A stretch of DNA of 11,852 nucleotides from Sulfurovum sp. bin170 (GTDB lineage: Bacteria; Campylobacterota; Campylobacteria; Campylobacterales; Sulfurovaceae). A program made the translations under genes and the position numbers. The notes under the pieces are model-generated. The model saw only the letters and a program-made list of their open reading frames with translations, had not been told where the DNA came from and did not search any database. The DNA is taken from positions 1-11,852 of the forward strand of contig NZ_JAACKB010000310.1 in the NCBI RefSeq assembly GCF_010892395.1, in the 5' to 3' direction. Position 1 is the first letter of the stretch. Each line of letters starts with the position of its first letter. Positions 574 through 11,598 of this stretch are shown here, one piece after another.

Positions 574-648
574 GGCTACTTTTACATAACCACGCCAAAA
601 GCGACATTGATTCTTTAATAAAACTTAAATTAAAACTCTTCAAAGCTT
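574..648 (+). repeat. left terminal inverted repeat (IRL), 75 bp
   Basis: It begins GGCTACTTTTACATAACCAC and pairs base by base with the reverse complement of 4557-4631, with mismatches only at 616, 636 and 639. The first 42 bases are identical. Tn3-family ends are normally about 38 bp and often begin GGGG; this one is twice as long and begins GGCTAC. Its inner end covers the last codons and stop of tnpR (640-648). Confidence 0.92.
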
Positions 649-1251
649 AAGAACTTTCTCTCCAAACTCTCTAAGCTCCCCTGTGGGTCCAACATAACGA
701 TAAAGAGTAGGGCGAGTAATCCCAAGCTCTTTACAAAGTTCAGCCACAGAAGTATCACGATTTTTCATGGAGGCTTGAGCTAATCTCACTTGAGCTTTAG
801 TCAATTGAAATTTTCGTCCACCTTTTCGTCCTCTAGCTCGTGCTGCTTGAAGTCCTGCTATGGTTCGCTCACGGTTGAGTTCTCTTTCAAACTCAGAAAG
901 AGCAGCAAAAATAGAAAAGACCATTCTCCCTGATGGAGTGGTGGTGTCAATATCAACCCCTTGACCAGAGAGAACTTTGAATCCAACTTTTCTTTGTGTT
1001 AATTCATCAACTGTAGAGATAAGATGTTTTAGATTTCGTCCAAGCCTATCAAGTTTCCAAACCACCAATATATCATCCTCTCTAAGAGCCTTAAGACAAT
1101 TTTCCAATCCTGGTCTATCCTCTTTGACTCCAGATGCTTTGTCCGAGTAGATATTTTCTTTTTGAACTCCTGCTTCTATTAGTGCATCTATTTGTAAATC
1201 TAAAACTTGGCTTCCATCTGATTTTGAGACTCTTGCATAACCTATAAGCAT
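640..1251 (-). CDS. tnpR: Tn3-family serine resolvase (resolvase/invertase family)
   Basis: This site-specific serine recombinase resolves transposition cointegrates at res. From the chosen ATG (1249-1251) it has 203 residues, close to the usual 180-210. The N-terminal catalytic domain starts MLIGYARVS, with the nucleophile expected at Ser9. The family motifs VVWKLDRLGRNLKHL, TPSGRMVFSIFAALSEFER and ARARGRKGGR follow. The C-terminal helix-turn-helix is at about residues 168-187 (SVAELCKELGITRPTLYRYV). The frame could extend 17 codons upstream to 1302, but that extension has no family similarity, whereas AAGGGG lies about 9-10 bases before the ATG at 1251. The gene diverges from tnpA, as in Tn3 itself. 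Its TGA stop (640-642) lies inside the left terminal inverted repeat, so its C-terminus is tied to the transposon end sequence. Confidence 0.93.
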   Translation of the reverse strand: MLIGYARVSKSDGSQVLDLQIDALIEAGVQKENIYSDKASGVKEDRPGLENCLKALREDDILVVWKLDRLGRNLKHLISTVDELTQRKVGFKVLSGQGVDIDTTTPSGRMVFSIFAALSEFERELNRERTIAGLQAARARGRKGGRKFQLTKAQVRLAQASMKNRDTSVAELCKELGITRPTLYRYVGPTGELREFGEKVLKL

Positions 1252-1325
1252 TTTGGTTTTCCCCTTATGTAAATCAAACCACCGTTTGTGACCCATATTC
1301 AATTTATATTAAAATAGATTCAAAT

Positions 1326-1354
1326 AGTATAAAATAATCCGTTACTTATTCTAA
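1326..1354 (-). promoter_or_regulatory. candidate tnpR promoter
   Basis: On the minus strand, TTAGAA (1354-1349) is followed by a 17-base spacer and TATACT (1331-1326). The -10 matches the consensus at five of six positions; the -35 matches at three. Transcription would begin near 1319, giving a leader of roughly 68 bases before the tnpR ATG. It overlaps the inverted repeat at 1346-1352, which would fit autorepression. Confidence 0.4.
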
Positions 1355-1377
1355 GTATAGCAAAGGTTATATACAAT
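1349..1377 (+). promoter_or_regulatory. candidate tnpA promoter
   Basis: TTCTAA (1349-1354), 17 bases, then TACAAT (1372-1377), a five-of-six -10 match. The start of transcription would lie near 1384, about 23 bases before the tnpA ATG, leaving room for the AGGAA ribosome site at 1395-1399. The -35 hexamer is the same six bases used in the tnpR candidate on the other strand. Confidence 0.4.
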
Positions 1378-1406
1378 AAGAATAAAAAACAAATAGGAAT
1401 GACTTC

Positions 1407-4400
1407 ATGGGAACAACTTTAAGAATCCTAACCAAAGAGGAAGAAAAATTTTTAGAACAATCTCCAAAATTCACTTATCAACAAAAAGAGTATTTTTTTA
1501 AATTACCAAGTAGTCTAATGGATACTTTAATCTCCGTTGATAAAGCTTCAAATAAAACCCTACTTATTTTGATGTTTGGCTACTTTAAAGCAACCAATAG
1601 ATTTTTTAAAATTGAGAGTAGTGATGAGAATTTGTTTTATATCGAAGAGATTTATAATCTTAAAAAAACTAAAATTATCTCCAGTAGTTCAAGAACCATT
1701 CAGCGATATAAGAGATTAATAAAAACCCATTTAGGTATTAAGCCTTATGATAACTCGATAGAAAAGCAACTTCAACAAGAGGCAATTAATCTTGCCAACA
1801 ATTTTGTACATCGTAAAAAAATACTCTACTCTTTAATTGAGTTCTCAAAAAAGTTAAAGATAGAAATACCCAGTTATTCTGAACTGTTGAGAATCATTTC
1901 AGTCGCTCTAAGTTACCCAAAAATAAATGTTTTAAACAAACTAGAATCTTATTTAAATGATGAGAGGTTAAAAGTGCTTGATGATTTTTTAGATAAAAAT
2001 AGTAGCTATAAAAACAAGTATAACATCATACAGTATAAACGAATAGGACACTCCACAAATCGAAAGCAGATGTTATTGAGTTTGGAGCATTTTAGTACAA
2101 TAAAATCTAAATTTAATGCCATAAGAGCGTTGATAGAGACTATAGGAGTTACTCCAAAAATGGCTCAATATTATGCTAGATGGATTGAGAAAGGAAAAAC
2201 AACCCAACTTACTCAAAAAGATAAACTCAATACAAGTTTCCTCCTTCTATCTTTCATCTATTATCAATATCTCATCCGTAATGATAATCTAATTGATAGA
2301 TTTATCTCCATTGTACAAAGTGCCAAAAACTCATCACTTAGGTCTCAAAAAGATGCTAGTTTTGAACAGGAGCCGAATAAAAATAGAATTATTCAATCGC
2401 TAGAGGAGTCTAATCTTTCAATGCTTAATGAGATTGATGCCATTTTAAAAAATGAGACTATTAACGCCTCAAAAAAAGTAGATCTTATCAAACAGCTTGT
2501 AGAACAAAAAAGCAGGGTTCTTACAGAGATACTCTCAGAAAAAAAACTGTTTGAATCTTCAGTTGATAAGAGGTATGAGTTTATTGAGAAAAAATCAAAA
2601 TCACTTCAAGGCAAACTATCAGGAGTAGTTAAAGCTCTTGAGTTTGATGAACCAAGCTCTCATAAAAATATTATTGAGGCGATTAATTATTTCAAGAACC
2701 GAGATGGAGATGTTCAAAAAGATTCCCCCAGAGCATTTTTGAGTGAAGAGGAGCAACAAGTTATCTTTGAAGAGGGGAAATTTAGAATATCACTCTATAA
2801 AATATTGCTCTTTTTTCATATTGGTGATGCCATAAAATCAGGAAGACTTAATCTAAAACACTCCTATCGTTATCAAAACTTTGAAAGTTATCTGATTGAT
2901 AAAGAGGAGTGGAAAAAATATAAAGATGCACTATTGAAAACCTATAATTTGGAGCATTTAAAAGAGTTGGAGAAATTTTTAGAACCAATAAAATCAAAAT
3001 TAGAGAGTAGCTATAAGCAGACCAATGAGAGGATTATCAAAGAGTTAAACACCAATTTTAGATTAACAGCAGACTCTTTTATTCTAAAGACACCCAAGCT
3101 TGAAAAAGAGCCATATCAAGAGGAGTCTATCTCCAAATATTTTCCTCAAAGCGATTATCTTTCTGTTATTGATGTGTTGCACTCCATTAATCAAGAGACC
3201 AATTTTTTAGAAGCTTTTCAACACTATAGTCAAAGTAAAAGAGAGAGAAATCAAAACCTACTGTTGGCTTCTGTATTGGGCTATGGATGTAACATCAATA
3301 TCTCAAAAATAGGTAAAATTTCCAAAGGAATCAATGAGAATCAACTTGATAATACCAGGATATGGTACTTTACAGGAGAGAACACCATTGAAGCCAATAA
3401 TAGAGTTATTACATTTATGGACACTTTAGATATTGTAAAACTGATGAGAAGTCACAAAGAGGAGAATCATACTTCTAGCGATGGTCAAAAGTTTAATATG
3501 AATCCCTCAGTAGATTCCACCAATGCAGGACACTCTCTTAAATACTTTGGTTTCCCAAAAGGGGTAAGTGTTTATACCTTTATAGATGAGTCACACCAGC
3601 TCTTCCATTCACAAGTTATCAATGTTTCTGAACGAGAGAGTGGGTATGTGATTGATGGGTTGATGCACAATGATGTCATAAAAAGTGATATACACTCAAC
3701 GGATACACATGGATATAGTGAGGTTATTTTTGGATTGACTCATCTATTGGGATTTTCATTTGCACCAAGGATTAAAAACTTTAAAAAGCAACAACTCTAT
3801 AGCTTCAACTTTCCAAAGGAGTATCATGCTCTAGGCTATAAACTGATTCCAAAACATAAGATAAAAGAACAAATAATGAAAGAAAATTGGGATGATATTC
3901 TACGGTTTGTTGTCACTATAAAATCAAGGAAAACAACCACCTCTCAACTGCTAAAACGATTAACCTCTTATAGCCGTCAACACAAGTTATATAGGGCAAT
4001 CAAAGAGTTCGGAAAAATTATAAAAACAGATTTTTTACTAACTTATATTGATAATGTTGAGCTTAGACAACGCATTGAGAAACAGCTCAATAAAGTAGAA
4101 GCATCTAACAAATTTTCTAAAGCCGTTTTCTTTGGGAATAATGCAGAGTTTCAAGTCTCAACAGTAGAGGAGCAAAATATCGCTAATAACTCAAAAAGAC
4201 TAATTCAAAACTCTATAATCCTCTGGAACTATCTTTACATGAGTAAAAAAATACAACAAGCTCAATCTCAAAAAGAGAAGGATGAAATTATTCAAGCTAT
4301 TCAAAACAGCTCTACAGTTCATTGGAGTCATATCAATTTTTATGGGGAATATGATTTTACTAAAAGGAGTAAACGCGTTAGTGCCATGATTAGACTTGAC

Positions 4401-4418
4401 AAGGAGGAACTTTTTTAG
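1407..4418 (+). CDS. tnpA: Tn3-family transposase (DDE)
   Basis: The protein cuts the transposon ends and joins them to a target in replicative transposition. It has 1003 residues, the full length for the family (about 950-1010). The N-terminus (LTKEEEKFLEQSPKFTYQQK..., residues about 8-170) matches the DUF4158-type DNA-binding region. The C-terminal half holds the Tn3 DDE domain: first Asp at D692 in TSSDGQKF, second Asp at D766 in TDTHGYSE, and a probable catalytic Glu near E914 in VFFGNNAEF. The conserved downstream segments SIILWNYLYM and VHWSHINFYGEYDF follow. The ATG is preceded by AGGAA with good spacing (about 7 bases). The frame is uninterrupted and the key residues are in place, so the enzyme is likely functional. 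After the TAG there are 138 bases before the inner edge of the right inverted repeat. Confidence 0.97.
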   Translation: MGTTLRILTKEEEKFLEQSPKFTYQQKEYFFKLPSSLMDTLISVDKASNKTLLILMFGYFKATNRFFKIESSDENLFYIEEIYNLKKTKIISSSSRTIQRYKRLIKTHLGIKPYDNSIEKQLQQEAINLANNFVHRKKILYSLIEFSKKLKIEIPSYSELLRIISVALSYPKINVLNKLESYLNDERLKVLDDFLDKNSSYKNKYNIIQYKRIGHSTNRKQMLLSLEHFSTIKSKFNAIRALIETIGVTPKMAQYYARWIEKGKTTQLTQKDKLNTSFLLLSFIYYQYLIRNDNLIDRFISIVQSAKNSSLRSQKDASFEQEPNKNRIIQSLEESNLSMLNEIDAILKNETINASKKVDLIKQLVEQKSRVLTEILSEKKLFESSVDKRYEFIEKKSKSLQGKLSGVVKALEFDEPSSHKNIIEAINYFKNRDGDVQKDSPRAFLSEEEQQVIFEEGKFRISLYKILLFFHIGDAIKSGRLNLKHSYRYQNFESYLIDKEEWKKYKDALLKTYNLEHLKELEKFLEPIKSKLESSYKQTNERIIKELNTNFRLTADSFILKTPKLEKEPYQEESISKYFPQSDYLSVIDVLHSINQETNFLEAFQHYSQSKRERNQNLLLASVLGYGCNINISKIGKISKGINENQLDNTRIWYFTGENTIEANNRVITFMDTLDIVKLMRSHKEENHTSSDGQKFNMNPSVDSTNAGHSLKYFGFPKGVSVYTFIDESHQLFHSQVINVSERESGYVIDGLMHNDVIKSDIHSTDTHGYSEVIFGLTHLLGFSFAPRIKNFKKQQLYSFNFPKEYHALGYKLIPKHKIKEQIMKENWDDILRFVVTIKSRKTTTSQLLKRLTSYSRQHKLYRAIKEFGKIIKTDFLLTYIDNVELRQRIEKQLNKVEASNKFSKAVFFGNNAEFQVSTVEEQNIANNSKRLIQNSIILWNYLYMSKKIQQAQSQKEKDEIIQAIQNSSTVHWSHINFYGEYDFTKRSKRVSAMIRLDKEELF

Positions 4419-4556
4419 TTGAGAGAATCACTTTAAGCTAGATTTAAAGGGGGATGCCGAAAAAAGGAGATTGTTTAAACTTGTGTATATTTCAGATTAA
4501 ATTAAGAACTCTTGGCGTGTTTGGTACCTTTGTGTATTTCTCTTGTAAAAACTCTA

Positions 4557-4631
4557 AAGCTTTGAGGAATTTTAATTTAAGTTTTATTGAAGAATCAATG
4601 TCGCTTTTGGCGTGGTTATGTAAAAGTAGCC
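4557..4631 (-). repeat. right terminal inverted repeat (IRR), 75 bp
   Basis: It is the reverse complement of 574-648 at 72 of 75 positions and ends ...GTAGCC at 4631. The inner boundary is at AAGCTTTGAGG; further inward the two ends diverge. Both repeats keep the same order of blocks (GGCTAC, ACATAACCACGCC, AAAGCGACATTG, an AT-rich section, then CAAAGCTT). This suggests that more than the usual 38 bp is under selection, or that the ends were recently made alike. Confidence 0.92.
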
Positions 4632-4822: not shown

Positions 4823-7246
4823 ATGATAAATCTAAAAGCCTACAGAGATAAACCAAAATCTCTAGGTGATTTACTAAACTATGCAACGATGATAGACTCT
4901 GCAACATTGTTAAATAAAAATGGCTCACTCACCACAGGGTATAGTTATACCTCTAGTGACCTCTCATCAGCCCCACTCTATGAGAGAAATGCATTAACCA
5001 ATAGAATGAACAGAATACTAAGCCAATTTGGTAGCAATTGGACAATACATATAGATTCCTTTAGAACCAAAGTTAATAACTACCCTAAAGAAGAAGAGTC
5101 ATTTTTTAAAGACCCCATAACCAAACAGATAGATAACAATAGAAGAGACTACTTTGAAAATCAGGGAAATCTATACGAAACACAATTCACCCTATTTCTA
5201 ACCTACATCCCACCCTCAAAGGTTAAATCATTACTGCTCTTAATGAGTGGAGAGAACAGAGAGACTGAATTTGAGACTCATATAAAATATTTTCATGAGA
5301 AATTGGCAGAGTTTGAAAATATTTTCACCTCATTTTTTAAAATAGAGAGACTAGAGAACTATACACAAGAGGATAAGTATAAAGAAGAGTCTATCTACGC
5401 CCCTATTCTCTCAACCATTAACTACTATATCACAGGTAAAAAACATCCTATAAAACTACCACCTCTTCCAATGTATCTTGATAGTATTATAGGAGCTAAA
5501 TCTTTAATAGGTGGATTAGAACCAAAGATAGGTGATAAGTTTATAAAGATAGTCTCTATCGATGGCTTCCCTATGGAGTCAAGCCCAAATATTCTAAATA
5601 ACCTAAACTTGATGGATTTTGAGTATAGATTCTCAAATAGATTTATCTATCTTGACCAGAGTGAAGCTCTATCACTACTAGATAAAGAGAGAAGAAAATG
5701 GAATCAACAGACCACCTCTTTATGGCAACAGCTTTTTGACATTCAAACAAACAAAGTTGATAAATACGCCACCGAGATGGTAGAGCAGATAGACTCTGCC
5801 ACAGCTGACCAAAAATCAAATATGGTCTCTTTTGGTTACTATAGTGCAAATATTGTCATACTAGATGAAGACCAAGAGAGACTACATAAAAAAGTTAATA
5901 TCGTTATTCAAAATATTGAGAGCTTAGGATTTAGTGCAAGAGTGGAGAACTTTAACGCATTAGAAGCGTGGTTGGGAACTCTACCCTCTCACTCCATAGA
6001 AAATCTCCGAAAACAGATGATTTCAACCCTAAATCTAGCTCACTTTATCCCTACAAGTAATATCTGGACAGGAGATAGATATTGCCCCTCTGATAAGTTT
6101 CCCATAAAGTCACCTCCCCTACTCCACACCGTATCAGATGGTCATGTACCCTTTAGACTAAATCTACATGTAGAGGATGTAGGACATACACTAATATTTG
6201 GTCCAACAGGAGCAGGAAAATCAACTCTTATTGCTCTACTTGTAGCTCAATTTCATAGATATAGAAATGCAAAAATATTTGCCTTTGATAAGGGAAACTC
6301 ACTCTTTGCACTTACCAAAGCAACTGGTGGGAAACATTATGAGATACTAACAGAGGATTCAGAACTATCCTTTGCACCATTAGCCAATCTTCAAACCACA
6401 GCAGATAGAGTTTGGGCTGAGGATTGGATAGAGATGATATGTGAGCTACAGGGGCAAACTGTTATGCCTGAACAGAAAAGAAAAATTAGAGAAGCTTTAA
6501 ATACCCACATAGATACCAACTCAAAAACCCTAACAGAGTTTATAGCTCAAATCCAAGATGATAATATATCAGAAGCTCTCTCATTCTATAGCTCCAAAGG
6601 CTCTATAGAGATACTTGATGGAGATGTAGATAGTATCACATTTGCAACACTATCTACATTTGAACTTCATGAGCTTATGCAGTTAGGGGATAAAGTAGTT
6701 ATACCCATACTACTCTATCTCTTTCATAAGATAGAGCAGTCACTTGATGGATCACCATCAGCCATTTTTATTGATGAAGCGTGGGTGGTTCTTGGTCACC
6801 CTGTATTTAGAGATAAAATCAAAGAGTGGTTAAAAGTTCTTAGAAAGTATAACTGTGCTGTTATACTTTCAACCCAATCTCTATCAGATGCAACCAACTC
6901 TGGAGTATTGGATGTACTCCAAGAGTCATGTCCTACAAAAATATTTTTACCCAACTCAAAAGCTTTCCAAAAAGGAACCGATAGCACTATTTTAGGACCC
7001 TATGATTTCTATAGAACCTTTGGACTAAATGACCAAGAGATAGAGATTATCTACTCCTCTATACCTAAAAGAGAATACTACTATAGCTCACCCAATGGTA
7101 CAAGAAAATTTAATCTAATGTTTGATGATTTCACCTTAGCATTCTGTGGAGCTTCCTCGATAGAGGAGGTAACAGAGATTAAAAAACTAATTGCAGAAGA
7201 TGAGTCAACTTGGATATCTAAATGGATTCAATATAGAACCAACTAA
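4823..7246 (+). CDS. trbE: type IV secretion / conjugation ATPase TrbE (VirB4 family)
   Basis: This is the cytoplasmic, membrane-associated ATPase that energises pilus assembly and substrate transfer. At 807 residues it has normal length for TrbE/VirB4. The N-terminus (NLKAYRDKPKSLGDLLNYA, then LLNKNGSLTTGYSY and SSDLSSAPLYER) follows the TrbE pattern. The C-terminal RecA-like domain has the Walker A motif GPTGAGKST at residues 460-468 and Walker B AIFIDEAW with D651/E652. The later conserved segment ILSTQSLSDA...LQESCPTKIFLPN is also present. There is no VirB3 fusion at the N-terminus. The ATG follows AAGGGA by six bases. It is the first gene of the operon seen here; trbB, trbC and trbD, expected just before it, are not present between it and the transposon. 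All motifs look intact. Confidence 0.95.
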   Translation: MINLKAYRDKPKSLGDLLNYATMIDSATLLNKNGSLTTGYSYTSSDLSSAPLYERNALTNRMNRILSQFGSNWTIHIDSFRTKVNNYPKEEESFFKDPITKQIDNNRRDYFENQGNLYETQFTLFLTYIPPSKVKSLLLLMSGENRETEFETHIKYFHEKLAEFENIFTSFFKIERLENYTQEDKYKEESIYAPILSTINYYITGKKHPIKLPPLPMYLDSIIGAKSLIGGLEPKIGDKFIKIVSIDGFPMESSPNILNNLNLMDFEYRFSNRFIYLDQSEALSLLDKERRKWNQQTTSLWQQLFDIQTNKVDKYATEMVEQIDSATADQKSNMVSFGYYSANIVILDEDQERLHKKVNIVIQNIESLGFSARVENFNALEAWLGTLPSHSIENLRKQMISTLNLAHFIPTSNIWTGDRYCPSDKFPIKSPPLLHTVSDGHVPFRLNLHVEDVGHTLIFGPTGAGKSTLIALLVAQFHRYRNAKIFAFDKGNSLFALTKATGGKHYEILTEDSELSFAPLANLQTTADRVWAEDWIEMICELQGQTVMPEQKRKIREALNTHIDTNSKTLTEFIAQIQDDNISEALSFYSSKGSIEILDGDVDSITFATLSTFELHELMQLGDKVVIPILLYLFHKIEQSLDGSPSAIFIDEAWVVLGHPVFRDKIKEWLKVLRKYNCAVILSTQSLSDATNSGVLDVLQESCPTKIFLPNSKAFQKGTDSTILGPYDFYRTFGLNDQEIEIIYSSIPKREYYYSSPNGTRKFNLMFDDFTLAFCGASSIEEVTEIKKLIAEDESTWISKWIQYRTN

Positions 7247-7259
7247 TATAAAGGGAGAG

Positions 7260-8006
7260 ATGAAACAAATCATACTATCAGCTATTATCTTATCGGTAAT
7301 ATCTCTATCTTCATTACAAGGTAGCTCATTTGCAGGTTCACTAGAGGTTACCCAAGTGGGTCAATGGGTGGATGATAAGATAGATTCAGTCAAAGACTAT
7401 GTACAGTTTGCAAAGAATGTAAAACATAATCTTGACCAATTAAAGACAATGAGGACTAATCTGAAAAAACTAGGTTCAAGAGATTGGATAGACTTTGAAG
7501 ATCAAGTAAGAGAGCTAAAACGATTGGTTAGTTATCAAGATGCTTTAACTTACGCAGCATCAAACTATGAGACCCTTTTTAAAAACAAGTATAAAAATTA
7601 TGATGAGTTTGTACGAATGTATCAAAGTACAACAGGTGTTAGAGACTTTGCCCAAGAGTATAAAACTCTAAACAAAAGTACAAGAAATACCGTAGAGTCA
7701 GCTCTAAAACAGCTAAATTTATCAATGGATGATATGGAAGATGATAAAGTGGTCATGGACAGACTAAAAGACTTAAGTAAAAGTTCTGTAGGACAGAAAC
7801 AGGCTATATCTGTAGTTAGTCAAATCTCTCTACACTCCATAGAGCAACTAAAAAAACTAGAAAAAGTCCTTATGTCAAACCATCAACTCCATGCTGCATG
7901 GATAGCCAAAAAGAATGCTAGAGAGGAGATGGAGGATGCAGCTCACTCGACACGAGTACCTGCCAATGGTAGAGACCTCACTATAAATTACGGAAAGGCA
8001 TATTAA
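7260..8006 (+). CDS. trbJ: TrbJ/VirB5-family conjugal transfer protein
   Basis: This is a periplasmic, minor-pilin-like component. I start it at the ATG at 7260 (248 residues), 13 bases after the trbE stop. An ATG at 7191 would overlap trbE by 56 bases and bury the signal peptide, whereas the 7260 start is preceded by AAGGGAG, although only four bases away. The first 25 residues (MKQIILSAIILSVISLSSL... ending SFA before G) form a Sec signal peptide. The mature part is mostly helical with coiled-coil character (VQFAKNVKHNLDQLKTMRTNLKKLG; SLHSIEQLKKLEKVL), as is usual for TrbJ. Sequence identity in this family is low, so the assignment rests on signal peptide, helix pattern and position between trbE and trbL, as in Ti-type trb operons. 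The trbK gene that follows trbJ there is missing: the next gene begins four bases after the stop. Confidence 0.82.
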   Translation: MKQIILSAIILSVISLSSLQGSSFAGSLEVTQVGQWVDDKIDSVKDYVQFAKNVKHNLDQLKTMRTNLKKLGSRDWIDFEDQVRELKRLVSYQDALTYAASNYETLFKNKYKNYDEFVRMYQSTTGVRDFAQEYKTLNKSTRNTVESALKQLNLSMDDMEDDKVVMDRLKDLSKSSVGQKQAISVVSQISLHSIEQLKKLEKVLMSNHQLHAAWIAKKNAREEMEDAAHSTRVPANGRDLTINYGKAY

Positions 8007-8009
8007 TCT

Positions 8010-8984
8010 ATGAAAGCCAATAGAAAACTCCAAACTATAGCCGTGGTTTTAATAATACTGCTCCCACTCAATCTATTGGCAACTTCTGTTCCTGCAACCC
8101 AAGACCCAACACTATATGATGATATAGTTGATTCATTTATAGCATCAGCTAATCAGTGGCAACCTATCTTTCAAAATCTAGGTTACAGAATATTTGTAGC
8201 TCTTGCAGCTATACAGATAGTTTTAGAGTTGGGATTCATGGCAGCAAGAGGTGAGATAGAGCTTGGTGGAGTAGTGGCTACATTTATGAGAATGTTTTTA
8301 ATATTTGGAATTTTCTATGGACTTATTGGAACACCAAACTTTTTTATAGATTGGTTCAATAGCTTTAATCTCTTAGCAGACCAAGCCAATACAGCAGCAG
8401 GTGGAACGGCTGTACACGCGGCTAATCTATTCGCGGCAGCTGACCAGATATTTCATCTTGCTATTGATAACTTCTCTCTATTCGATTTTGGTAAAAGCAT
8501 GGCTCTGATTCTTGCAGCTTTTTTAGCAGGGATTTTACTCGTACTACTCTCAATAGAATTGCTTATCACTATCCTAAAATTCTACTTTACCCTCTATATC
8601 AACATTATTATGATGGGATTTTCAGCACTACAACAGACGAGGCAGTGGGCAATTAATGGGATTACTAATCTTTTAAAAATAGGATTAGAGTTACTTATGA
8701 TAAAACTGATTATTGGACTCTCTATCACTACCATTATGCAGTTTGCAAATGATGCTTCAAATAATGATAATCAGAGCTTGATATATCTGGTCATCTTGGT
8801 ACTCTCTCTCTTCTCACTAGCAAAAATGATTCATCCAATGGTAGAGAGTTTCTTTACAGGATATGGTTCAAGTAATAGCAACTTTGGTCAAAGAGTAGGA
8901 CAAGCAGGATTAACTTCAGCTACAAACTCTATTGGACAAGGTTTAGGAAATGTAACAAGCTCTACAAAAAGTCAAGTCTCATAA
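8010..8984 (+). CDS. trbL: TrbL/VirB6-family inner-membrane protein, C-terminus cut by in-frame TAA
   Basis: This is the polytopic inner-membrane subunit of the transfer channel. The 324-residue product has an N-terminal hydrophobic segment (IAVVLIILLPLNLLA, a signal or first membrane span) and further spans near residues 50-70, 90-112, 167-205, 220-240 and 250-270. The TrbL-type architecture ends in a Gly/Ser/Gln/Asn-rich tail (GSSNSNFGQRVGQAG). The gene starts four bases after the trbJ stop, with GGAAAGG upstream. The frame ends at TAA (8982-8984) but continues open to 9293 without a shift; the uninterrupted protein would be 427 residues, nearer the usual TrbL length. All membrane spans lie before the stop, so the short product may still function. 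Alternatives are a recent nonsense mutation (CAA to TAA is one change), stop readthrough, or a sequencing error. Confidence 0.88.
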   Translation: MKANRKLQTIAVVLIILLPLNLLATSVPATQDPTLYDDIVDSFIASANQWQPIFQNLGYRIFVALAAIQIVLELGFMAARGEIELGGVVATFMRMFLIFGIFYGLIGTPNFFIDWFNSFNLLADQANTAAGGTAVHAANLFAAADQIFHLAIDNFSLFDFGKSMALILAAFLAGILLVLLSIELLITILKFYFTLYINIIMMGFSALQQTRQWAINGITNLLKIGLELLMIKLIIGLSITTIMQFANDASNNDNQSLIYLVILVLSLFSLAKMIHPMVESFFTGYGSSNSNFGQRVGQAGLTSATNSIGQGLGNVTSSTKSQVS

Positions 8985-9293
8985 CTAAAGACAAACCAAA
9001 CTTCACAAAATGGTGTTAATCAATCATCAGGACAAGCACCAAATACAACAAATGGAAGCAGTAGCAGTAAGAGTATGAATAATCCAATAAGCATGAAGAG
9101 CATAGGAAAAGGAGTAGGTGAAGCTACTCTAAAAGCAACAGTAGGAACACTCAAAGCAGTTTCAAATATTGGTGGAAGTATGGCTAAAGAGGCTTTGGAT
9201 GAGCGACATACAGCAAATTCAAATACAACTTCATCCCAAGATTATCACAAAAAGTTCCCAACAAACTATAGCCCACCAAGCAATAATAAATAG
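8985..9293 (+). pseudogene. detached TrbL C-terminal tail (includes a 72-codon ORF from ATG 9075)
   Basis: These bases continue the trbL frame directly after its TAA. They encode 102 residues: first a polar Ser/Thr/Asn/Gln-rich linker, then GKGVGEATLKATVGTLKAVS and a hydrophilic end finishing PPSNNK. Such low-complexity tails with a short amphipathic helix are typical of TrbL C-termini. An ATG at 9075 would give a separate 72-residue protein, but no Shine-Dalgarno site stands at the right distance (the nearest purine-rich stretch is GGAAG about 20 bases away). The most likely reading is that this is the former end of trbL. A small independent protein made by translational restart, or a readthrough extension, cannot be excluded. 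The next gene, trbF, begins 14 bases after the TAG. Confidence 0.72.
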
Positions 9294-9307
9294 GAGAGAA
9301 TCAGATA

Positions 9308-9970
9308 ATGCAGAATAAAAAGAGCCAAAACAACAGTGTCTATATGGATGCAAAAAGAGAGTGGAATGAACGATATGGCTCATATATCAAACAGGCACAC
9401 ACTTGGAAGATTATATCTATCTCTCTTATGCTTATAACTCTTCTAGCCGTAGGAGGATTTATATACACCTCTTCTCAAAATAGATTTATCCCCTATATCG
9501 TCCAAATAAACAAATTGGGTGAACCCATTTCCATCTTTAGAGCCAAAGCCACTATTATCAAAGACCCAAAAATAATCAAGTTCTCACTTTCGGAATTTAT
9601 AGTCAATTATAGAACAATCTATAATGATAAAGATGTTCAGGTTCAAATGATAAAAAAAGCCTACAACTATCTATCAGCCAACTCTCCTGCATACAATATG
9701 CTAACACAGTACTTTGTGGATAATCCACCATTCCACCAAAATAAGCGAGTAGTAGTAAAAATCATATCAGTGCTAAATCTCTCAAAAAATAGTTGGCAGA
9801 TAGATTGGGAAGAGGAGACATTTAACAGTAAAGGTGAGCTAACTCAAACAGAGAACTATAAAGGTATCACAAAGTTTGCAATAGTACCACCAACAAGCGA
9901 AGAGAGAATACTGAAAAATCCCATAGGACTCTACATCACAGAGTTTAACTTTAACCAAAAAATTAAATAG
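9308..9970 (+). CDS. trbF: TrbF (VirB8 family) conjugal transfer protein
   Basis: This is a bitopic inner-membrane scaffold protein of the type IV secretion system. The 220 residues fit the family (about 220-240). The cytoplasmic N-terminus carries the TrbF signature YMDAKREWNERYGSYIKQA (residues 12-30). One membrane span follows at residues 35-56 (IISISLMLITLLAVGGFIYT). The periplasmic VirB8 domain begins RFIPYIVQINKLGEP and includes the SWQIDWEEE strand. AGGAGA (9292-9297) overlaps the preceding TAG and sits ten bases before the ATG. Its own stop (TAG, 9968-9970) overlaps the ribosome site of trbG, so the two are translationally close. All parts look complete. Confidence 0.95.
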   Translation: MQNKKSQNNSVYMDAKREWNERYGSYIKQAHTWKIISISLMLITLLAVGGFIYTSSQNRFIPYIVQINKLGEPISIFRAKATIIKDPKIIKFSLSEFIVNYRTIYNDKDVQVQMIKKAYNYLSANSPAYNMLTQYFVDNPPFHQNKRVVVKIISVLNLSKNSWQIDWEEETFNSKGELTQTENYKGITKFAIVPPTSEERILKNPIGLYITEFNFNQKIK

Positions 9971-9980: not shown

Positions 9981-10907
9981 TTGAGGAAAATTTTATTACT
10001 AATATATATCACACTAAGTAATCAACTTTTAGCAGAAAATAGCTACTTCTCAGAAGATAGCTACAGAATGGATGAGAGAGAGTGGGAGTCTGTACGACAG
10101 GCTAAAAAGTGGCTAGAGAATGATATTCGCTCGATGAAAGGGAGAGATGGACGAATCACATTTTTACATGGTGCAACCATGCCATCAGTCATCTGCTCTC
10201 CACTAAAGATAACCGATATTCAGCTAGAAGTTGGTGAAGAGTTAAAATCTATACAAGCAGGTGATACAGCAAGATGGAACTTCTCAACAGATGTATCAGG
10301 AAAAGGTAAAAATGAGATAGTTCACATTATTGTAAAACCTCTTGACCTTGGGCTAAATACAAATCTTATTATCTTTACAGATAGACGAACCTATAACCTC
10401 AAACTCATCTCAAAAAAATATGCATGGACTCCAATTGTAAACTTTACCTATAACGCTTCACTTCAAAGCTCTCTACTCAACTATAAACAGTACAAAAGAA
10501 AAAAAGCAAACAGCTATAGGAAACAAAACACATTTGAAAAGTCACCTCAAAGCCGAGTAGATATAAATAACTTAAATTTCAATTACGAAATAGAGGGTGA
10601 TGCAAAGTGGAAACCTCTTAGAGTCTACAATGATGGTATAAAAACCTTTATTCAGATGCCAAAAGATATGAGTGTACAAGAAGCACCTGCATTAGTAGTT
10701 TTGGATAGCTCATCCAATAAAAACTTGGTCAACTATAGACTGAAAGAGGATAAGTATATCGTAGATAAACTCTTCGATTCAGCCATGCTCCTACTTGGTG
10801 TGGGAAGTGACCAAGAGAGTATTATGATATATAGAGTTGATAAAAACTCTAACCATAAACCTAGTAATCATCTAAAAATATTAGAAGGAGTTAGTAATGA
10901 GTATTAA
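9981..10907 (+). CDS. trbG: TrbG (VirB9 family) conjugal transfer protein
   Basis: This is a periplasmic/outer-membrane core subunit that assembles with the VirB7- and VirB10-type proteins. It has 308 residues from a TTG start, supported by a perfect ribosome site and by an N-terminal Sec signal peptide (MRKILLLIYITLSNQLLA, cleavage after A18). The N-terminal VirB9 domain holds the TrbG motif chain DGRITFLHGATMPSVICSPL, then DIQLEVGE, GDTARWNFS, HIIVKP and LNTNLIIFTDRRTYNLKL. A linker rich in Lys and Tyr follows (about residues 165-190). The C-terminal domain begins FNYEIEGDAKWKPLRVYNDG and includes KTFIQMP. Its last 11 bases overlap the start of the next gene (ATG at 10897), which suggests translational coupling. 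Confidence 0.95.
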   Translation: MRKILLLIYITLSNQLLAENSYFSEDSYRMDEREWESVRQAKKWLENDIRSMKGRDGRITFLHGATMPSVICSPLKITDIQLEVGEELKSIQAGDTARWNFSTDVSGKGKNEIVHIIVKPLDLGLNTNLIIFTDRRTYNLKLISKKYAWTPIVNFTYNASLQSSLLNYKQYKRKKANSYRKQNTFEKSPQSRVDINNLNFNYEIEGDAKWKPLRVYNDGIKTFIQMPKDMSVQEAPALVVLDSSSNKNLVNYRLKEDKYIVDKLFDSAMLLLGVGSDQESIMIYRVDKNSNHKPSNHLKILEGVSNEY

Positions 10908-11598
10908 AAATAGATTTCTAATAGTTACAAGTGTAGCTCTACTATTCATAGGATGTAATTCAAAACCCACTCACTTTAGTCCATTTGTTTGTGATAAGAT
11001 TGACCTAAGTAAAAAGAGAGATGCTATAGTGGTTCATGATTTTATAACTATTATAAAAGCCTATTATTCACCTGCAACAACTGTATTTCAAATAGAGAAG
11101 ACAGGCTCTATGTTTGAGAAGAGTATAGAGAGTGAACTTAGAAAAAGAGGTTATGGTATAGGTGCTATCTATGGTAAAGGTATAACAAGAACTCCTCTAG
11201 CTTGGAGAGTTACCTATCTCAATAAAAAGATGATTCGAGTCTCTTATCATATTGGTGAAGATGTTAGTATTAGTAGAATCTACAAACTAAAAGATAGACA
11301 GTATAAACCCTTTAGCTCATTCTCTGCTGTTGGGCTAGATAGTAGAAAGTTTGCAAATTTAGACTTCTCCATGCCAAAAAATATAAGTGCAAGAAAGCAA
11401 AGCATTTTATCACTAGCAAAAGTAACAGCAAGTAGTCTGAAAATCAGGTCCAAACCTAGTGCTAAATCCAAAGAGATAGCTACGATAAAAAGAGGAGAGA
11501 GTATATCCTATAGTGAAATAATAATGGATAGTAGAGGTGAAGAGTGGGTAAAGCTAGAGGGTGGAGGCTATATGAAAGCTTCATATCTAAAGTTTTAA
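10897..11598 (+). CDS. lipoprotein at the trbH (VirB7-like) position with C-terminal SH3 domain
   Basis: The protein has 233 residues. The N-terminus MSIKNRFLIVTSVALLFIGC is a lipoprotein signal with the lipid-modified Cys at position 20; the box (FIGC) has Phe at -3, which is slightly unusual. The middle part is of no family I recognise. The last 62 residues (about 172-233: TASSLKIRSKPSAKSKEI, then IKRGESISY, EEWVKLEGGGYMKASYL) match a bacterial SH3 (SH3b) domain, a fold often tied to peptidoglycan or peptide binding. It overlaps trbG by 11 bases and precedes trbI. This is the place of trbH, itself a lipoprotein in IncP and Ti systems, so I infer an outer-membrane core partner of TrbG. Direct similarity to known TrbH is not evident to me, hence no symbol. 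AAGGAG stands about seven bases before the ATG. Confidence 0.85.
   Translation: MSIKNRFLIVTSVALLFIGCNSKPTHFSPFVCDKIDLSKKRDAIVVHDFITIIKAYYSPATTVFQIEKTGSMFEKSIESELRKRGYGIGAIYGKGITRTPLAWRVTYLNKKMIRVSYHIGEDVSISRIYKLKDRQYKPFSSFSAVGLDSRKFANLDFSMPKNISARKQSILSLAKVTASSLKIRSKPSAKSKEIATIKRGESISYSEIIMDSRGEEWVKLEGGGYMKASYLKF

Follow-up and report, generated by a model that had tools for sequence, protein, structure and literature searches.

The question raised by this locus is why trbL is closed by an in-frame TAA when the same reading frame stays open far beyond it, and what the stretch behind the stop has become. The window, that is the whole stretch of 11,852 nucleotides of the uncultured Sulfurovum sp. 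bin170 that was analysed, is an entire contig of a genome in 462 contigs that is 83% complete. It contains a P-type operon, trbE-trbJ-trbL-trbF-trbG plus a trbH-like gene, lying behind a Tn3-family transposon, with the following features.

574..4631, resolvase on the - strand and transposase on the + strand: Tn3-family transposon of 4058 bases, ending ∼190 bases upstream of trbE
4823..7246, + strand: trbE (VirB4-like ATPase), open throughout
7260..8006, + strand: trbJ, its start placed at an ATG that is preceded by a ribosome site (7191 for the mechanical ORF)
8010..8984, + strand: trbL head, a 324-residue TrbL carrying the hydrophobic spans and closed by an in-frame TAA
8982..8984, + strand: the in-frame TAA, a sense codon at the aligned place in the relatives L007-L010
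8985..9293, + strand: what was once the C-terminal tail of TrbL, with 102 codons ahead of the TAG at 9291-9293, a Ser/Asn/Gln-rich linker, a predicted short helix and KKFPTNY near its end
9075..9293, + strand: mechanical ORF of 72 residues within the tail, lacking a ribosome-site match (-0.2 kcal/mol)
9308..9970, + strand: trbF (VirB8-like), with its own AGGAG site overlapping the end of the tail frame
9981..10907, + strand: trbG (CagX/VirB9-like), open throughout
10897..11598, + strand: gene resembling trbH, with an SH3 domain at the C-terminus and an NCBIfam TrbH match below the cut-off

The head belongs to the TrbL/VirB6 family, as indicated by its profile match over the membrane domain (Pfam TrbL, PF04610, 1.6e-14, 54.7 bits against a cut-off of 25.9) and by its position in a trb operon, with trbJ before it and trbF after it. 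It shares the domain match, the hydrophobic spans and this position with other P-type TrbL/VirB6 proteins, but differs from them in that its tail is cut by an in-frame stop and its NCBIfam TIGR02783 score (2.3e-34, 119.1 bits) falls just under the curated cut-off of 128.85. A tail of ∼80-145 residues in frame is usual in the lineage, though not family-defining, and is lacking here with the stop after residue 324. The split itself had been described correctly in the original prediction, the frame running on without interruption from 8985 to 9290. Such a frame is seldom open by chance (3 of 4000 shuffles of the tail's own bases in each of two schemes, mononucleotide and dinucleotide), and the other two forward frames of the region hold 8 and 10 stops. 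In these shuffles, as in the pN/pS comparisons described below, the window tail piece included one base of the TAG, which was ignored as a partial codon.

The proposal that the frame behind the stop encodes the tail of TrbL itself is borne out by the relative L007 (Campylobacteraceae bacterium isolate 4559-240, with the same translations as G026:C5), in which TrbL is a single frame of 431 residues. A study on hydrothermal vent deposits of the deep sea also has a bin labelled 4559-240 (PMC9793634). Identity between the window and L007 is 87% over 323 aligned residues of the head and 60% over 96 residues of the tail, and the last 103 residues of the L007 protein (329-431), used as a query, recover positions 8979-9296 of the window at 60% (E 4.9e-29). 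The more distant L008-L010, of which L009 and L010 are near-copies, are 42% identical over the head, and their tails have in common NMN(S/T)PIT and, near the end, K(K/R)FPT(D/E)Y, along with a stretch that looks helical; the window has SMNNPIS, KKFPTNY and such a stretch as counterparts. Judged by its sequence, the stretch after the stop is the tail of TrbL. Pfam finds nothing in the relative's tail and gives only a chance-level match (0.13) for that of the window.

Around the stop the alignment is ungapped, with KSQVS-stop-LKTNQTSQ in the window against KTQSSTLKANQTSQ. The residue at the stop position is Thr in L007, Ala in L008-L010 and Gln in none of them, and the single CAA-to-TAA change suggested previously is thus not supported; TAA is at least two base changes away from every Thr or Ala codon.

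Whole tails are the rule in the family. In a survey of 175 genomes of the window's family, TrbL was matched in 28 genomes (32 rows including the window), and its frame is 392-472 residues long in all 29 other rows, one of which (G151) holds a TAG; this count omits the window as well as G167, whose single frame-broken gene takes up two rows. Beyond residue 328 of L007, 80-145 residues follow in 25 of 25 aligned rows (alignment A2, which leaves out the window, L002, which equals L007, L010 as a near-copy of L009, L006, the stop-holding L015 and the broken L023). The C-terminal columns of this alignment end in lineage-specific conserved motifs (YISGVPG, STGEIKGA, KFPTEY). Across 398 genomes drawn from the order, 24 match TIGR02783, six of them above the cut-off, so that most matching genomes score below it as the window does, and short TrbL frames in this set include those of G330 (341 residues), G422 (319), G513, G424 (with TAA), G266 and G453. 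The G330 protein (L048) resembles that of the window in ending soon past the core, but it has a short Gly/Ala-rich end of its own, shows no split frame and is distant from the window TrbL. The G422 frame was rejected as a natural short TrbL, being a frame break with an overlapping tail-like frame. G151 (TAG), G167 and G422 (frame breaks) are like the window in carrying a lesion in an otherwise recognisable trbL; in contrast to the window, where only the tail is lost, the G151 stop and the G167 break lie in the membrane core, and the G422 break lies near its end. The in-frame TAG of G151 (L015, position 1756) represents a nonsense lesion of independent origin within the family. The survey of frames thus indicates that tails are normal in the family, that a short TrbL exists and that the window is not alone in having a broken trbL.

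The depth of this comparison is set by the relatives found: L007 was the only close one, the species of the window being represented by no other genome, and it was the single relative among 25 stretches in the genome contigs scanned. The viral contigs scanned gave one candidate stretch and no relative. Plasmid records with a match numbered 99; among the 30 matches listed, none covers 80% of the query and all are below 60% identity. In one of these plasmids TrbL has 430 residues, and its start is overlapped by a lipoprotein gene of the EexN family.

Could translation instead begin at the ATG at 9075 and yield the tail as a small protein of its own? The Met and the motif MN(N/S/T)PI(S/T) are conserved in L007-L010 and in an orphan tail of G156, where a tail is present without a head, and the site before this Met scores -7.1 in L008 and -10.0 in L009 and L010, within Gly-rich coding DNA that is purine-rich. 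In the window, however, the site scores -0.2 kcal/mol, in agreement with the original view that this ATG lacks a fitting ribosome site, and in L007 -2.8; the starts of seven window genes score between -3.9 and -11.5. Of six strong tail matches (E <1e-9) in the 175 genomes, four lie within whole TrbL frames of 434-441 residues, the others being the window and G156, and no relative in the same survey ends at this stop, with or without a conserved small gene behind it. The G156 tail (L050, 94-429) comprises only the last 111 TrbL residues, 90% identical to L008, in a 117-codon frame that starts within the first 100 bases of its contig, and its conserved Met has GGAG just ahead. A search of the G156 genome for a TrbL head found none. 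Behind the tail lie the same small frames and integrase gene (PF00589, 1.6e-14) that follow the whole trbL of G142, and this flanking, together with the nearby contig end, argues against a small gene in its own right. The G156 tail is likely a deletion remnant of an integrated element, or a contig-end artefact, rather than a conserved small gene, a single case being too little to settle this. Taken together, we regard a separate product from ATG 9075 as very unlikely.

Programmed or leaky readthrough of the stop, yielding a short and a long TrbL, is in keeping with a frame and a constraint that persist past the stop, but the stop is absent from every relative with an in-frame tail, both in the 175-genome survey and in L007-L010; the conservation of the stop, flanked on either side by constraint, that programmed readthrough calls for is thus not seen. 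Moreover, the window carries no tRNA, and TAA acts as an ordinary terminator in this operon, ending trbE, trbJ, trbG and trbH at, or within three residues of, the ends of the relative's genes. Since four neighbouring genes end in TAA where those of the relative end, reassignment of this codon is excluded within the operon, and the programmed readthrough raised in the original prediction becomes extremely improbable. An error of sequence or assembly would leave the real TrbL whole, and so would a minor strain variant, the bin being fragmented and metagenome-like; the number of contigs and the incompleteness of the genome speak for this, as does a tail without clear sign of decay. Against it, the other complete genes of the contig are unbroken, including those for the 1003-residue transposase and the 807-residue TrbE, and substitution errors are rare in an assembled consensus. 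We consider such an error or variant unlikely.

Divergence from L007 offers some insight into the age of the stop. With the L007 protein divided into head and tail behind residue 328, a point two codons short of the residue that faces the stop in the alignment, pN/pS between the window and L007 is 0.47 for the tail (bootstrap 0.30-0.73), 0.36 from ATG 9075 on and 0.13 for the head. In 11 pairs of intact TrbL (L012, L014 and L031 each being used in two pairs) the values are 0.07-0.55 for tails and 0.04-0.39 for heads. The window tail therefore ranks second highest of 12, and a slight relaxation is possible, though not established. Relative-rate counts of window-only against L007-only changes (9 versus 5 and 8 versus 7, with two outgroups) appear to lean slightly to the window, are far too few to tell and give no clear acceleration. 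A third of the tail (34 of 102 codons) is one change away from a stop, no second stop is present and the reading frame is identical at both tail ends. Constraint on the tail without clear acceleration in the window lineage makes the stop look recent, and the kept frame with no second stop implies that the stop is recent or that the tail is still made; a still-translated tail would give the same divergence pattern.

The surroundings bear on how far the operon is still in use. The inverted ends of the transposon (84 bases, 93% identical, the first 40 identical) are flanked by a 6-base repeat, ATCTTA, and resolvase and transposase are the only genes seen within it. A second copy was searched for in the window's assembly and not found, and no drug-resistance gene was present among the ten window ORFs scanned. 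The frame at 3-536, open from the contig start and without a Pfam match, is probably the C-terminal part of a protein. At the other end, the trbH-like gene is followed by a partial frame that resembles the next gene of L007 and is presumably trbI by gene order. In G026 the genes lying between the VirB3-like gene (in the place of trbD) and trbE encode type I restriction functions and a replication initiator of the Rep3 type, and the G026 element is therefore probably a plasmid. This cargo (L032, 8317-12000; L033, 1-5069) occupies the interval where the window has its Tn3 element, and this interval may be a site for cargo within the trb operon. For the TrbB-like ATPase of G026, the window's 83%-complete genome gave partial matches at 33-36% and no close match. 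The window operon may be partly disabled, in which case selection on trbL would be relaxed.

What the shortened protein keeps and loses can be estimated from hydropathy and modelling. All spans with a mean hydropathy of at least 1.6 lie in the head, the tail reaching a maximum of 0.65, which confirms the expectation that the membrane spans are all upstream of the stop. In an AlphaFold model of the L007 TrbL (25 sequences, mean pLDDT 68), ten-residue pLDDT means are 80-96 for residues 41-290 and below 50 for all of 291-431, where a helix at 374-398 is of no confidence; no solved structure was matched by sequence at E 0.1. Although the modelled tail is of low confidence, the conserved motifs at the tail ends suggest, as far as sequence conservation can indicate, a binding motif at the end. 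VirB6, whose RP4 counterpart is TrbL, sits in the inner membrane as a pentameric part of the stalk and is thought to serve as a platform for pilus assembly (PMC12624023, review). Deletion of trbL abolished transfer of pKPC_UVA01 (PMC8923210). Mutations in RP4 trbL selected by phage PRD1 were linked to partial resistance with a moderate drop in conjugation, and some PRD1-susceptible clones also had trbL mutations, with conjugation not significantly affected (PMC13222520).

Our results are best explained by a nonsense mutation that arose recently in the trbL gene of a conjugation operon of P-type (RP4/Ti-like), a reading that we hold to be highly probable. Under the ordinary code, translation ends at residue 324, giving a TrbL without its ∼100-residue low-complexity tail, about a quarter of the protein, but with its membrane domain kept; the shortened protein probably still inserts and may work, perhaps less well. 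The 323 bases from the new stop to the start of trbF would no longer be translated, so that trbF would lean on the ribosome site at its own start at 9308, which has a duplex of -7.3 kcal/mol, and not on a four-base overlap with the trbL frame as in L007. The tail would now be unselected, with too little time yet for decay. Of the earlier interpretation, the split TrbL tail, the upstream spans and the poor site at ATG 9075 are supported, and the CAA-to-TAA change and programmed readthrough are not.

It is most likely that the mutation is an ordinary one and not a new way of reading genes. A different reading holds that loss of the tail is a selected tuning of a working channel, for example to lessen infection by plasmid-dependent phages, with the tail, which has a conserved start Met, made on its own through weak restart or low-level readthrough. 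The RP4 mutants selected by PRD1 are comparable in that a change in trbL is tied to partial phage resistance and moderately lower conjugation (PMC13222520), but the window carries no phage evidence, and we judge such tuning highly improbable. If it were true, pilus or channel behaviour would be altered with the DNA channel still working. As a recent nonsense mutation, the stop is mildly useful as a pointer to where the folded core of TrbL gives way to its variable tail.
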